Part shown: in pieces, positions 50,718 to 58,500 of the stretch
Position numbering within the stretch: position 1 is the stretch's first letter
How the letters are laid out: each line of letters opens with the position of its first letter
Assembly: GCA_025041175.1 (NCBI GenBank)
Contig: JAKCFJ010000001.1
Span: 1,054,001-1,118,000, forward strand
From: Halobacteriales archaeon YIM A00010
GTDB lineage: Archaea > Halobacteriota > Halobacteria > Halobacteriales > Haloarculaceae
Direction of reading: 5' to 3'
Length of the DNA stretch: 64,000 nucleotides
Translations under genes and position numbers: made by a program
Notes under the pieces: generated by a model
Database searches by the model: none
Seen by the model: only the letters and a program-made list of their open reading frames with translations
Told to the model about the DNA's origin: nothing

Positions 50718-52349
50718 TCAGGCGAATTCTTCGAACGAGAGCGTGTACTCCCCGTTACCGCTGAAGGAATCGATGGTTACGTACAGGGGGACTGACGCTT
50801 CGGGCGGTTCGATCGTGATCCGTTCGTCGCTGTTGCTCGACCGACCGGAGTAGTCGTGTCGGTCGATCGTCGGGAGAAGCTCTCGGCCATCGATGATGTA
50901 CAGATCGAAATCGGCGTCCGACGGACCGGAAAGAGTGAGCACGACCTTGCTCGGTTCTTTGTATCCCCACGTGTAGGAGTAGTAATTTTCGGGTTTAGAT
51001 TCCGAAAGCGCTCCGTCCAGCTCGGTTGTAGTCGATTCGATACCACCGCCGCCGTCGTTCTGGTCCGGGTCCGAGGAATCGGAGCCGGAGTCGGGCTGAG
51101 TATCCGAATCGGAGCCGGAGTCGGGCTTTTCGCCGGGAGGCGTCGTGAGCGCCGCGCCAGCATCGATTCGACCAACGCCTTGTTTCGTCTCGGAAAGGCC
51201 GACATCGACGGCGGTGTTTCTGAGGTGGGTTCGCAGTTCCTCGTTCGTCATGTCGTACTTCGCGAGGGCGAGACCCGCAACCCCCGAGACCACGGGCGCT
51301 GCCATCGACGTGCCGGACGCGGACTTGTACCCGTCCTCCGGCCACGTCGAGACGACGTTCGTCCCGGGAGCGGTCAGTTCGATCGCGTCACCGTGGTTCG
51401 AATAGGACGCAAACGATTCGTCGGGATCGAGCGCTGACACCGCGATACACTCGTCATACGCTGCGGGATAGGTCGTCTCGTTGGTGCCGCTGTTGCCAGC
51501 AGCGACGACGACGAGCGCGCCGTTAGAACTCGCGTACGTGACGGCGTTTTGCATCGTCTGCGAGCGGCCACCACCACCGAGCGAGAGGTTGATGACGTCT
51601 GCACCCTGATCGACCGCCCATTCGACCGCGTCCGCGATGTCGGACACCGATCCCCAGCCGGAACCGTTCAGCACCCGTGCCGACAACAACGTCGAATCGC
51701 TGATGCCGGAGATACCCTGTGCGTTATCAGTGCGCGCGCCCGCGATGCCCGACACGTGCGTTCCGTGGGGTTCGTTCGATAGATCCTCCGGATACGGATC
51801 ACTGTCCCCGTCGACGAAATCCTTCCCAGGAGACGACGCCACGTTCGGCTCCAAATCCGGATGGTCGTACTGTACACCCTGGTCGATCGTGGCGATCGTC
51901 ACGTCGGAGCTTCCGAGCGTCTCCTCCCACGCTGTCGATGCATCGATCGCCTCCGCTACGTACTGGTCCTCGCGCTGAGGGTCGTTTGGAAGGAACTGAG
52001 CGCGGTACGTCTCATTTTTTTCCACATATTTGACAGGTCCAGTGTCCGCGATCGCCTGTGACAACGATTCGTGGGTTTGCGTGGTGACTTCCTCCTCATC
52101 CGGAAGCTCGACAGCAGCGTAGCCGATCGTGTCGTTTTCGTGAACCACGCTGGCCGATCCCGGAAGATACGGTTCGACCTCGCGTTGTGGACGATTCTTC
52201 CCGACCCCGACGCCCACGATCCACTCGGCCGGCTTCGGTCCTGGCTCGCGCCCCGGATTCGCTGACGCAACGCCTGAGAAGCCCGCTACGCCGGCGAATC
52301 CGCTCAATCGGAGAAACATTCGTCGGTCAAGTCCCGAACGGCCCATCAT
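50718..52349 (-). CDS. Tat-exported halolysin-type S8 serine protease 4
   Basis: 543 residues. Tat-like signal DRRMFLRLSGFAGVAGFSGV (8-27) then REPGPKPAEWIVGVGVG. Catalytic Asp in IDQGVQYDHPDL (same Asp-Gln variant as protease 3), His in HGTHVSGIAG, Ser in SGTSMAAPVVSG. An Asp/Ser-rich linker with two GSDSDTQPDSG-like copies precedes a PPC-like C-terminal domain. Closest to proteases 1 and 3, yet located 37 kb away in the surface-protein region. Lacks the shared 28-bp 5' module. Confidence 0.92.
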   Translation of the reverse strand: MMGRSGLDRRMFLRLSGFAGVAGFSGVASANPGREPGPKPAEWIVGVGVGKNRPQREVEPYLPGSASVVHENDTIGYAAVELPDEEEVTTQTHESLSQAIADTGPVKYVEKNETYRAQFLPNDPQREDQYVAEAIDASTAWEETLGSSDVTIATIDQGVQYDHPDLEPNVASSPGKDFVDGDSDPYPEDLSNEPHGTHVSGIAGARTDNAQGISGISDSTLLSARVLNGSGWGSVSDIADAVEWAVDQGADVINLSLGGGGRSQTMQNAVTYASSNGALVVVAAGNSGTNETTYPAAYDECIAVSALDPDESFASYSNHGDAIELTAPGTNVVSTWPEDGYKSASGTSMAAPVVSGVAGLALAKYDMTNEELRTHLRNTAVDVGLSETKQGVGRIDAGAALTTPPGEKPDSGSDSDTQPDSGSDSSDPDQNDGGGGIESTTTELDGALSESKPENYYSYTWGYKEPSKVVLTLSGPSDADFDLYIIDGRELLPTIDRHDYSGRSSNSDERITIEPPEASVPLYVTIDSFSGNGEYTLSFEEFA

Positions 52350-53951: not shown

Positions 53952-54536
53952 ATGAGTGCTCCCGAGGGAGAGTATTACACCGAAGAGCGTTGGCAGAACT
54001 GGATCGACCGATTAACGGCAGAAGAGATCGACCTCGAAAACGAGGAATCAGGGCGTTTACTCCAGAACTTTCAGGACGACACCGTCATCGCGATCGCAAA
54101 GATCGTCTCCGACTACGACGACGAGATACTCGACGAGGAGACGGCGTTGTCGGAGCTTGCTGGCGTCCGCGAAATCGTGCTCACGGAGGTCGAACTCGGT
54201 GAGGAAAACGAGAACACGCTCATGTTGGTGAACGCCGTCCAGACGGCGCTCGTCTGTGTGTTTTACGCCGCAGAAGAGTACATCGTCGACGATGAAGCCG
54301 GCACGGACGTCGAACAGTGTATTCACGCCGCGCGCGACGCAGAAGCAGAAGAGGAGTTCGAAACGGCGCTTGGCTACTGCGCACAGGCAGGTTCGGCCAT
54401 CATCGACGGAGGCGAACTCCCACCGAGCGCCGGCGAGGAGATCGAGTACGGACCGGTCGCCGATTGGATCACCGGCCTTCGGAGCCTCCAAGGAGCCATG
54501 GCCGACCCCGAAGTGGTCGAACCCGAAGACAGCTGA
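53952..54536 (+). CDS. DUF2150 family protein
   Basis: 194 acidic residues, mostly helical, matching the archaeal DUF2150 family in length and in EERWQNWIDRL, FQDDTVIAIAKIV, LVNAVQTALVCVFYAAEEYI and EFETALGYCAQAG. Function unknown; widely conserved in haloarchaea. Convergent with the AAA ATPase, 130 bp apart. Confidence 0.88.
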   Translation: MSAPEGEYYTEERWQNWIDRLTAEEIDLENEESGRLLQNFQDDTVIAIAKIVSDYDDEILDEETALSELAGVREIVLTEVELGEENENTLMLVNAVQTALVCVFYAAEEYIVDDEAGTDVEQCIHAARDAEAEEEFETALGYCAQAGSAIIDGGELPPSAGEEIEYGPVADWITGLRSLQGAMADPEVVEPEDS

Positions 54537-54664: not shown

Positions 54665-57091
54665 TCATCGTTCGCTCAAGCTGGCCCGGATCTCCGCGAT
54701 GGATTCGATTACGTCTCGTTGCGTGACTTCTTCCGGACCTGTTCCAGTCCGCGCGCGCTGCATAGCCTTGCGTGCGGCCCGTTCGGCGGCGTGTTCTACG
54801 TCGCTCGCAACGAATCCCTCGGTCATATCACCGATCTCTTCGAACGAGAGTCCATCGGTCGGAGCCGTGAGGGAGCTATCGAACAGCGCGGCTCGGGTGT
54901 TTGCATCCGGCGGTGGAACTTCGATCAGCTCGCTGAACCGACCGGTTCTCAACATCGCCGGATCGATCTCATCAACCCGGTTGGTCGCTCCGATCACCAC
55001 GACGTTCTCACCGCTATCGTCGAGCTGTGACAGTTCGGCGAGGAGCTGGTTGACCATCTGCCGTTCGCTTTTGGTCTGGCGAGCGCTTCGGTCGGTGGCA
55101 AGGGCATCGATCTCGTCGATGAAAACCAGACACGGCTGGTTCTGCCGTGCCTCCTCGAACATCGCCTCGACGTTTTTCGCTCCTTGACCGATCCACTTGC
55201 TGACGAGATCGCTCGCTTTGGCGCTGATGAACGCACAACCAAGTTCACCAGCAAGACACTTCGAAACGTGCGTTTTTCCGGTGCCAGGAGGACCGTACAG
55301 GAGCACCCCATTCTCCACGCCCAGTCCGTACTCCTCGTGAAACTCCGGCTGTGTGAGTGGATTAACGATCGTTTGTCGGAGCTGGTCTTTCAGTTCCTCT
55401 GCACCGACCACGTCCGAGAAGTCCATAGCCGGGGGGCGCTGGATGAACGACCCGGTCATCTCCTGTTGAGTGGTGATCGCCTCGATGGCGTCGAACACGT
55501 CCGTCTCGGTGACGACGCTCTCACGGCCGGTTTCTTGCTCCCGGCTCGCGGCTTTGACACCGGCCCGTCGGGCGAGTTCGACCACGTCCGACGACACGAG
55601 TCCCTCCGTTTCGCGTTCGAATCGGTCCGTATCGATCGACGTGGTTGGAGCGGTCATATGCTGGTCGAAGATCGCAATGCGCGCTTCCGCGTCGGGCGCT
55701 GGGACGTGTATCTTCGAGTCGAACCGACCTGTTCGAAGCATGGCGTCATCGATGCTCTCGGGGGCGTTCGTCGCACCGATCACGATAACGTCGTCGGTCC
55801 CATCGATGGCCGATAGCTCACTGAGCAGCTGGGAAACCAGCTTCGTGTCTGCCGGGCGCTGATTAGCCGCTGACCGATCGGTAGCGATCGCATCGATCTC
55901 GTCGATGAAAATCAGACACGGCTGGTTCTGCCGTGCCTCCTCGAACAGCTGCGTCATCACGTCGCCTCGCTGGCGGTCGATGCTCCCCCCGTCGATGCTG
56001 ACGTAATTACAGCCGAGCTCACCGGCCAAACACTTCGAGATGTGGGTCTTACCGGTCCCAGGCGGGCCGTGAAAGAGCACGCCGCTGTCCGAGGCCACGC
56101 CGTATTTTTCGTACACGTCGTTACCCGCAAACGGCTCGATGATCTGTCGTCGCAGGGTGTCTTTCAACGAATCCATCCCGGCCACGTCGTCGAAATCGAG
56201 GTCTGGCGGGCTGTCGACGAACTCCCCGTCCGTTGTGGCCCGACTGCCAGCCACGCCGGCGAAGAGTTGGTCAGCGGCGTGCGGGTCGCCGTTCGCCATC
56301 GCCCGTGCCGCAGAAACCGCGTTCGTGACGAGGGGACTCGGGTCGTCGGACAGTTCTCGAAGCCGTTCGGTATCCGGGTCGGGAAAGTGTCCGAGCGCAA
56401 CACACGCAGCCGCACGGACCTCCGGGTCCTCGTCGGAACACAGCTCGGCAAGCGGCTCTGTGAACTGCTCGGCGCGGTCGGGAAACGCGGCTCCGAGGTT
56501 CCCGGCCGCGATAGCAGCGTCGGTTTGCACCGACGAATCCGACCCGGTGAGCGCGCTACGCACCGCGTCCGCGTGCTCGATCACGGTGTCGGGATAATCG
56601 CGCGCGAAAAATTTCAGTGACGCAGCCGCGTTGGAGCGGACGTCGTCCACGGAATCGGTGAGGCGACCGACGAGCCGATCGACGATCGCTCCGACGTCCT
56701 TCGAAGACTGCTTTACGACCTTACCGGGCGCACCGCGACATCCATCAGCGACGACCGCGGCAGCAACAGTTCGCACGCGCTTGTCCCGACGATCGAGCAA
56801 CGAAAGCGCCTCCGCCGCGGCCTTCGGGGTCGAACGCTCTTGTAACTCTTGGGCGTGTTTGCGCGATCTCCTCCTTATATATACATATACATATAATATA
56901 ATCAATAATAAACCAGATAATAAAATTATAACTATATAAGAATATTCCCCCAGATTATATTGTAAGATAGAAGATGAGGAGATGAATCTCAATATATATC
57001 CAATAATAAATGAAATAATAAGAAATGATATAATAATCCTGCCGAGCTGCATCGTTTTCTGATCGATCCAGTTCACGCCCATCGTGACCAT
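54665..57091 (-). CDS. Membrane-anchored HEAT-repeat double-AAA ATPase
   Basis: 808 residues. Two membrane helices (about 17-37 and 50-71), a basic turn, then HEAT-like repeats (about 90-265; VDDVRSNAAASLKFFA, DPEVRAAACVALG). AAA1: Walker A GPPGTGKT (342-349), Walker B IFIDEID (394-400), RTGRF (453-457). AAA2: Walker A 600-607, Walker B FIDEID (657-662). AAA2 has the substrate-gripping pore loop KWIG (632-635) while AAA1 has a non-aromatic GSIDRQRG there. The AAA pair resembles Cdc48/VAT, but the VAT double-psi barrel N-domain is replaced by HEAT repeats and a membrane anchor. Likely unfolds or extracts membrane or client proteins. The codons of the membrane part are extremely AT-rich. The ATG at 57082, preceded by GGAG, may be the real start. 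Confidence 0.9.
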   Translation of the reverse strand: MVTMGVNWIDQKTMQLGRIIISFLIISFIIGYILRFISSSSILQYNLGEYSYIVIILLSGLLLIILYVYVYIRRRSRKHAQELQERSTPKAAAEALSLLDRRDKRVRTVAAAVVADGCRGAPGKVVKQSSKDVGAIVDRLVGRLTDSVDDVRSNAAASLKFFARDYPDTVIEHADAVRSALTGSDSSVQTDAAIAAGNLGAAFPDRAEQFTEPLAELCSDEDPEVRAAACVALGHFPDPDTERLRELSDDPSPLVTNAVSAARAMANGDPHAADQLFAGVAGSRATTDGEFVDSPPDLDFDDVAGMDSLKDTLRRQIIEPFAGNDVYEKYGVASDSGVLFHGPPGTGKTHISKCLAGELGCNYVSIDGGSIDRQRGDVMTQLFEEARQNQPCLIFIDEIDAIATDRSAANQRPADTKLVSQLLSELSAIDGTDDVIVIGATNAPESIDDAMLRTGRFDSKIHVPAPDAEARIAIFDQHMTAPTTSIDTDRFERETEGLVSSDVVELARRAGVKAASREQETGRESVVTETDVFDAIEAITTQQEMTGSFIQRPPAMDFSDVVGAEELKDQLRQTIVNPLTQPEFHEEYGLGVENGVLLYGPPGTGKTHVSKCLAGELGCAFISAKASDLVSKWIGQGAKNVEAMFEEARQNQPCLVFIDEIDALATDRSARQTKSERQMVNQLLAELSQLDDSGENVVVIGATNRVDEIDPAMLRTGRFSELIEVPPPDANTRAALFDSSLTAPTDGLSFEEIGDMTEGFVASDVEHAAERAARKAMQRARTGTGPEEVTQRDVIESIAEIRASLSER

Positions 57092-57432: not shown

Positions 57433-57921
57433 ATGCGACGGATTTCAGAACGTGTTCCTGTGTCGGTATCGTCGCCGGTCGGACGAGTGAAGAGTGGGTG
57501 CCGTCGCGTCAGCCATCTGTGTCGGAGAAGTTGGGGCGGAGTCCTCGGACTCGTAACGCAGTCCGGATGGGAGGATCTTCGCACATCGACGATCGTGACC
57601 ATCGGACTCGTCGGTCCGCTCTGGGTCGTTCTCACGGGGACGCACGAACTCGGTCTCAACGTGGTTGTAGGAGCGCTCTGTGGCAGTGGATGGATGGGCC
57701 TGGGAGTCTCACCGGTGATAGCGTTTGTGCTGCGGCTCACCATGATCGTTTTCTTCACGAAATTCCTAGTCCGTTCGATGATTGCGCTCGCACGGGCGGG
57801 CAGCCAGACGCCCGATATCAGAAATCCGGCGTTCTCACTCGCAGGCGCACTCCTTCCGGCCGTTGCAACCGGAGTCCTTCGGGTCGGTGATAGCAGCATC
57901 GCAGTCTGTCTGTTCCCGTGA
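57433..57921 (+). CDS. Small multi-pass membrane protein
   Basis: 162 residues with a basic N-terminus (1-45) and about three membrane helices (TIVTIGLVGPLWVVLTG, LGLNVVVGALCG/SPVIAFVLRLTMIVFFT, and AFSLAGALLPAVATGVL). No known family. The opposite strand is also open but Arg/Pro/Thr-rich as expected for an antisense shadow. Divergent from the membrane-bound AAA ATPase, which makes it a possible partner by position only. Confidence 0.5.
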   Translation: MRRISERVPVSVSSPVGRVKSGCRRVSHLCRRSWGGVLGLVTQSGWEDLRTSTIVTIGLVGPLWVVLTGTHELGLNVVVGALCGSGWMGLGVSPVIAFVLRLTMIVFFTKFLVRSMIALARAGSQTPDIRNPAFSLAGALLPAVATGVLRVGDSSIAVCLFP

Positions 57922-58131: not shown

Positions 58132-58500
58132 ATGACAACACGCTCGACACTAGTTGACACAGTACTAATGGGATCGGAGGACGGCAGCGGAATGAAACGC
58201 AAGCTAGCGATCGCCCTGCTGGCGATCGTTGGGGTGTCCATCCTGTTGCGGACGCGAAAGGGCGACACCGAAGCAAACGAAACGGAGGAACGATCGACCG
58301 GGGACGACGAGAGCGAATCGACGAGCGAGAGCACAGCCACAGACGAGAGTGGTGCTAGCGAACCGACCGCCAGTGGCGAGAGCCCCACAGAATCAGCAAC
58401 TGAGAGACAGCGCGAGCTGGACATGTTCGACATGCTCGCTATCTTCGCTGCTGCGATCACCTCCGCGAGAGACGAGTACCGTAAACGCGCCGGGAATTAA
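58132..58500 (+). CDS. Single-pass membrane protein with acidic stalk
   Basis: 122 residues; a start at 58192 (MKRKLAIALLAIVGVSILL) would give 102 and a signal-anchor at the very N-terminus. After the helix comes a Ser/Thr/Glu/Asp-rich region (RKGDTEANETEERSTGDD onward) and a short C-terminal amphipathic helix (LDMFDMLAIFAAAITSARDEY). Composition is typical of haloarchaeal surface proteins. Function unknown. Confidence 0.55.
   Translation: MTTRSTLVDTVLMGSEDGSGMKRKLAIALLAIVGVSILLRTRKGDTEANETEERSTGDDESESTSESTATDESGASEPTASGESPTESATERQRELDMFDMLAIFAAAITSARDEYRKRAGN

Follow-up and report, generated by a model that had tools for sequence, protein, structure and literature searches.

The window, a 64,000-nucleotide stretch of the genome of Halobacteriales archaeon YIM A00010 (assembly of 7 contigs, 5,969,888 bp), carries at 54665–57091 on the minus strand one unbroken ORF of 808 codons, an orthologue of ORF_0238 of Actinarchaeum halophilum YIM 93972. 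The initial annotation had described its product as two membrane helices, HEAT-like repeats and two AAA modules in one chain, and hydropathy, Pfam (AAA twice, E=2e-79; HEAT_2, E=3e-15) and AlphaFold2 agree on this arrangement, referred to hereafter as TM-HEAT-AAA-AAA. Its plus-strand neighbours are a convergent DUF2150 gene identified by Pfam (53952–54536), a divergent gene for a small membrane protein, MP1 (57433–57921), and a second small membrane protein gene, MP2 (58132–58500).

Hydropathy places the transmembrane helices of the 808-aa ATPase at residues 19–37 (56981–57037, minus strand, as for all features of this gene) and 52–70 (56882–56938), the latter followed by a basic cytoplasmic stretch; the full-length model has helices at residues 6–40 and 50–86. 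In the orthologues, too, hydropathy shows basic residues at the cytoplasmic ends of the helices. The transmembrane sequences drift rapidly, and the second helix of the Halococcus copy falls under the hydropathy threshold.

Residues 89–278 (56258–56827) form a HEAT/ARM solenoid according to Pfam HEAT_2, AlphaFold2 and Foldseek. When residues 75–290 were modelled alone, AlphaFold2 returned a 13-helix solenoid (pLDDT 89, pTM 0.85), for which Armadillo/HEAT/alphaRep-type solenoids predominate among the PDB matches listed by Foldseek. Thus the part of the layout that the initial annotation had held open to refutation, by models lacking HEAT repeats, stands as an alpha-solenoid of the HEAT-repeat kind. 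The full-length model, built from six sequences, is good in the HEAT part and too weak overall (pTM 0.37) to establish the relative placement of the domains or a hexamer. Its AAA part matched p97/Cdc48 folds in the PDB, as expected of any tandem AAA protein. Low dN/dS across HEAT, AAA1 and AAA2 (about 0.11–0.17), together with conservation in all seven members of the genus, indicates a real, constrained gene.

Both AAA modules, recognised by Pfam and by their catalytic residues, retain Walker A and B, sensor 1 and the arginine fingers, invariant among the seven sequences aligned. In AAA1 (about residues 290–545; 55457–56224) these residues are K348, D397, E398, N442, R453 and R456, with the Walker A motif GPPGTGKT at residues 342–349 (56045–56068); in AAA2 (about residues 546–805; 54677–55456) they are K606, D659, E660, N704, R715 and R718. 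AAA2 has an aromatic pore loop, SKWIG in the 808-aa ATPase (KWIG, residues 632–635; 55187–55198), of which K632, W633 and G635 are invariant across the family. The corresponding region of AAA1 (residues 368–377; 55961–55990) is degenerate and 4 residues shorter than in Halocatena marina and Halococcus morrhuae, the deletion being present in five of the seven proteins compared. H. marina keeps ESRWVGES (RWVG) and Halococcus morrhuae VSKLVGEG (KLVG), so the claim that only AAA2 keeps an aromatic pore loop is right for the 808-aa ATPase but not for the whole family. The five loop-deleted modules form one clade in the AAA1 tree (86/92), in which the YIM lineage has a long branch, and hence a single deletion suffices. 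Judged from these sequences, the shortened AAA1 loop is the derived state. A decaying relic was rejected on the basis of dN/dS, which is close in AAA1 (0.08–0.15) and AAA2 (0.09–0.12); given this and the invariant catalytic residues, AAA1 is probably a working ATPase which has lost its grip on the substrate. This supports the regulatory role first proposed for AAA1, as a derived state with the loop lost and the catalytic residues intact.

Distribution of the layout and the bald-mutant allele

A search for the TM-HEAT-AAA-AAA architecture recovered full-length proteins in 7/7 members of the Halocatena genus group and in 0/139 other genomes of the family. This agrees with presence in all morphogenetic haloarchaea and absence from other members of the family; the one exception, in 1/10 Halococcus species, lies outside the family. 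The named full-length carriers are H. marina, Halocatena pleomorpha, YIM A00013, A. halophilum YIM 93972 and Halococcus morrhuae. Since the last of these is a coccus, having the gene is not enough to produce hyphae. In two genomes listed as separate species (G002 and G006), the contig coordinates of the AAA and MP1 copies coincide; G006, the larger and more contaminated of the two, is possibly a mixed assembly.

No full-length copy covering the N-terminus was found in the other sampled genomes of the order or phylum. Stand-alone TM-HEAT proteins of 295–334 aa occur in a few other haloarchaea. These are homologous to about residues 16–263 of the 808-aa ATPase, helices included, but have no AAA modules, and at the loci read no AAA relative lay beside them as a split form of the fusion. 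In each of two genomes from different genera, two such genes are adjacent (G120:C6:10601-12490 and G031:C12:12109-13826). The simplest history is the fusion of a TM-HEAT protein to a duplicated AAA module, followed by transfer to or from Halococcus morrhuae. A viral or mobile origin was rejected, as a scan with two short peptide patterns found no relatives in viral contigs.

The main text of PMC10067837 (Nat Commun 2023) counts 61 genes that are strictly conserved among seven morphogenetic haloarchaea and missing from the rest of its set, one of them being ORF_0238 (halo.06695) of A. halophilum YIM 93972, described there as "a distinct homolog of Cdc48" and as limited to hypha- and spore-forming haloarchaea. 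According to the same text, all three bald mutants (3/3) carry a change called non-synonymous, G1067A, in this gene, and its protein is 3.9-fold lower in them. The transcriptomes in that study also show the change in nearly all transitional mutants, strains that still form weak aerial hyphae.

The YIM 93972 orthologue of the 808-aa ATPase lies at 229,418–231,823 of CP071306.1, near gene 238 of chromosome I: gene density (2803 genes in 2,676,592 bp) gives an expected ordinal of about 240, and a crude gene count, which misses short genes, gave 183–216 depending on the threshold, 216 being the most permissive. A search for the M6 peptidase family PF05547 to anchor the ORF numbering gave no match, controls included. 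The other AAA genes found on CP071306.1 are at 458 kb or beyond, and of all these only the orthologue is lineage-restricted, in agreement with the description in PMC10067837. Its sole usable start is an ATG; counted from there, base 1067 falls on the G of a TGG at codon 356, which a change to A turns into TAG. Among six further AAA genes tested on CP071306.1, only Cdc48b (about 602 kb), a canonical Cdc48, has G at base 1067. Agreement in position, in lineage restriction and at base 1067 makes the 808-aa ATPase the orthologue of ORF_0238, and hence of an already-known gene. The layout that the initial annotation presented as new therefore belongs to a reported gene, but the main text of PMC10067837 does not describe the layout itself, nor the TM-HEAT anchor, separate origin, Halococcus copy or stop.

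If this identification holds, G1067A reads as a nonsense mutation, W356 to stop, aligned with codon 361 of the 808-aa ATPase (56009–56011). The stop would fall within AAA1 shortly after Walker A, so that anchor and HEAT solenoid would remain along with the beginning of AAA1, and it fits the 3.9-fold fall in protein; the supplementary data of the authors may already record it. By inference, G1067A would be the cause of the bald phenotype. Bald and transitional mutants may instead be siblings with G1067A as a passenger, as the same allele occurs in all bald mutants and in nearly all transitional transcriptomes.

On that supposition the protein could be a housekeeping membrane quality-control unfoldase with an Msp1- or FtsH-like role and no link to differentiation. 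We consider this unlikely, although it is the alternative that fares best. Its combination of membrane anchor and AAA, its presence in the non-filamentous Halococcus morrhuae and the single allele common to all mutants, none of them complemented, are in keeping with such a role. Against it are the lack of a full-length copy in the 139 other family genomes and in nearly all other sampled haloarchaea, conservation in 7/7 members of the genus, the drop in protein level in bald mutants and the lack of an FtsH-type protease domain. Thus, of the "membrane-protein extraction or quality-control machine" proposed initially, the remodelling activity is plausible, but a role specific to the lineage is more likely than generic quality control, because the protein is nearly confined to hypha-forming haloarchaea and its orthologue is mutated in bald strains.

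Relation to Cdc48 and other AAA proteins

Like Cdc48/p97/VAT, the 808-aa ATPase has tandem AAA modules, and VAT and p97 are its best PDB matches in sequence and fold. In p97, the aromatic pore loop likewise lies in the second module. A true Cdc48/VAT paralogue which lost its N-domain, gained a membrane anchor and passes substrates to the proteasome would agree with these features and with its filing under Cdc48 in PMC10067837. However, the curated cut-off of the Cdc48 model TIGR01243 is 802.65 bits, and it scored only 381.7 bits with the 808-aa ATPase, 339.3 with the YIM 93972 orthologue and 400.3 with the Halococcus copy, whereas the canonical Cdc48 proteins of YIM 93972, used as controls, scored 1007 and 1020. 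The absence of the VAT N-domain was borne out: the 25 listed Pfam families of the 808-aa ATPase include neither CDC48_N nor CDC48_2, both are present in a control (L111), and TM-HEAT takes the place of the Cdc48 N-domains. No HbYX-like motif was found at the C-termini of the family. Without Cdc48 N-domain and HbYX-like tail, proteasome feeding or direct docking is not favoured.

In single-module trees, AAA1 and AAA2 of the family group in one clade (97/91.5; 98/92.6 once VATs from outside the order were added). The AU test rejected grouping of AAA1 with Cdc48 D1 (p=5e-7) and of AAA2 with D2 (p=8e-6), so AAA1 is not orthologous to D1, nor AAA2 to D2. The family and other haloarchaeal AAA proteins were split from Cdc48 and PAN with 100/100 support; an earlier, broader AAA tree, with two very long branches, gave this split weaker support. 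Cdc48 membership is therefore rejected by score, missing N-domains and phylogeny, and descent from a Cdc48/VAT paralogue is improbable. On this sequence evidence the 808-aa ATPase is not Cdc48 by descent. The single clade and the AU rejections indicate that its double-ring plan came from a separate tandem duplication, so that "Cdc48-like" is apt for the general double-ring plan but not for ancestry.

The same AAA group includes other haloarchaeal double-AAA proteins (L099 and L102–L106; 100/100 from Cdc48 and PAN for the members tested) and, only in the earlier tree with weaker support, a 2TM-AAA-AAA protein (L100). All of these differ from the 808-aa ATPase in their N-terminal regions and have no HEAT repeats. 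The L100 protein (L100:3588-5483), a HEAT-less cousin of 631 aa with two N-terminal transmembrane helices and two AAA modules, has a degenerate AAA2 (Walker A GPPGCGKAA, no DE box), so that its decayed ring is the opposite one.

FtsH shares the two N-terminal transmembrane helices followed by AAA, but the 808-aa ATPase has two AAA modules and HEAT repeats and no zinc protease domain: the protein ends after AAA2, no peptidase (M41) is among the 25 Pfam matches listed, and the FtsH model scored 353 against a cut-off of 600. Msp1 combines a single AAA module with a single transmembrane helix. The 808-aa ATPase does not have this plan of an N-terminal helix and a single AAA module, its own being two AAA modules, a two-helix anchor and a predicted HEAT collar, so that the resemblance is functional only. 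It lies in the N-terminal membrane anchor joined to an AAA motor with an aromatic pore loop, and Msp1/ATAD1 provides a one-ring precedent for membrane-tethered AAA extraction (PMC7018516).

Neighbouring genes

The region around the ATPase gene is collinear over most of the genus and over many genes. A probably secreted Peptidase_S8 subtilisin-like protease with a Tat-signal-like N-terminal RRMFLRLSG, encoded at 50718–52349 on the minus strand, is likewise syntenic across the genus. In H. marina, the AAA-MP1-MP2-DUF7553 block is intact and DUF2150 is elsewhere. DUF2150, suggested initially as a partner and adjacent to the ATPase gene in most genus members, was rejected on that account and is probably no partner. 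MP1, from a genus-restricted multi-copy family, lies divergently next to the ATPase gene throughout the genus, including where DUF2150 has moved away, and MP2 is syntenic within the genus. Both had been named as possible partners and are still candidates, but they are kept in the genus as many genes are, and neither they nor DUF2150 or DUF7553 were found in the flanks of the Halococcus copy. With synteny this broad and none of these neighbours around the Halococcus copy, partner claims are weak. That the neighbours are conserved mostly reflects synteny alone, with MP1 the best candidate among them.

MP1 paralogues were seen at L071:6421-6948, L068, L072, L073, L074 and L076. Several of them adjoin a 7-TM protein of ~480 aa and a TraG/HerA-like ATPase of ~1060 aa, which suggests a VirB2/VirB6/VirB4-like conjugation or secretion locus. 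In two species (L067:4302-7142 and L070:3793-6637), a paralogue lies directly downstream of a gene that by sequence encodes a 767 aa phosphoenolpyruvate synthase-like protein.

From these loci one might suppose a dislocase dedicated to MP1 as a possible T4SS-pilin relative, acting as VirB4 does on VirB2. The constant divergent position of MP1, the TraG/HerA-like and 7-TM neighbours of its paralogues and a weak T4SS_pilin match of one paralogue would accord with it. We give this reading little chance, as the block is syntenic across many genes, MP1 is not beside the Halococcus copy and has no Pfam match, the T4SS_pilin match is below cut-off, and the other MP1 paralogues lack an AAA neighbour of this kind. 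Matches of the PADLOC IetA and NCBIfam CdvC models to AAA2 suggested an ATPase for defence (IetA-like) or for membrane remodelling of the ESCRT/Vps4-CdvC type; this identity is most improbable and was rejected, since these generic AAA matches are far below the curated cut-offs (NCBIfam IteA 214 against 510, CdvC 269 against 650), no IetS-type partner lies directly beside the gene, no viral relatives were found, and the nearest single-AAA relatives have no Pfam MIT domain. By eye, the N-terminal helices of those relatives had looked MIT-like.

Proposed function

On balance, we favour the 808-aa ATPase as a membrane-anchored double-ring AAA+ unfoldase or dislocase of hypha- and spore-forming haloarchaea, carrying out remodelling needed for aerial hyphae. 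For a tethered motor that combines a protein-binding solenoid with an aromatic pore in AAA2, the simplest function would be the extraction or remodelling of membrane or envelope proteins. The two-helix hairpin would tether a hexamer to the cytoplasmic face of the membrane, and the six HEAT solenoids would form a collar to which a membrane or envelope client is recruited. AAA1, which retains its ATPase residues but in most of the genus no longer has its pore loop, would mainly hold or time the hexamer, while AAA2 would pull the client by its KWIG loop, leading to the extraction or remodelling on which aerial-hypha formation would depend. That the protein forms hexamers, binds clients through HEAT, uses AAA1 as a regulator and acts in the membrane is inferred throughout. 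Weighing against this reading are the weak full-length model, the allele shared with transitional mutants, the full-length copy in a coccus and the fast drift of the transmembrane sequences.

Reports of Streptomyces-like hyphae and spores in archaea date only from 2023, and none of the genes has yet been proven to be responsible. The one that mutation links most directly to this phenotype would encode a membrane-anchored HEAT-double-AAA machine and not a Cdc48, with a Cdc48-like two-ring plan that arose separately, and the published bald-mutant mutation reads as a nonsense allele. New here are this W356-stop reading, the non-Cdc48 descent, the distribution of the TM-HEAT-AAA-AAA layout, the derived loss of the AAA1 loop and the assignment of neighbour conservation mostly to synteny. 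More tentatively, TM-HEAT joined to a Cdc48-independent AAA pair may represent an unrecognised class of membrane dislocases, possibly an essential switch for hyphae and spores, in which the W356 stop would abolish aerial hyphae.
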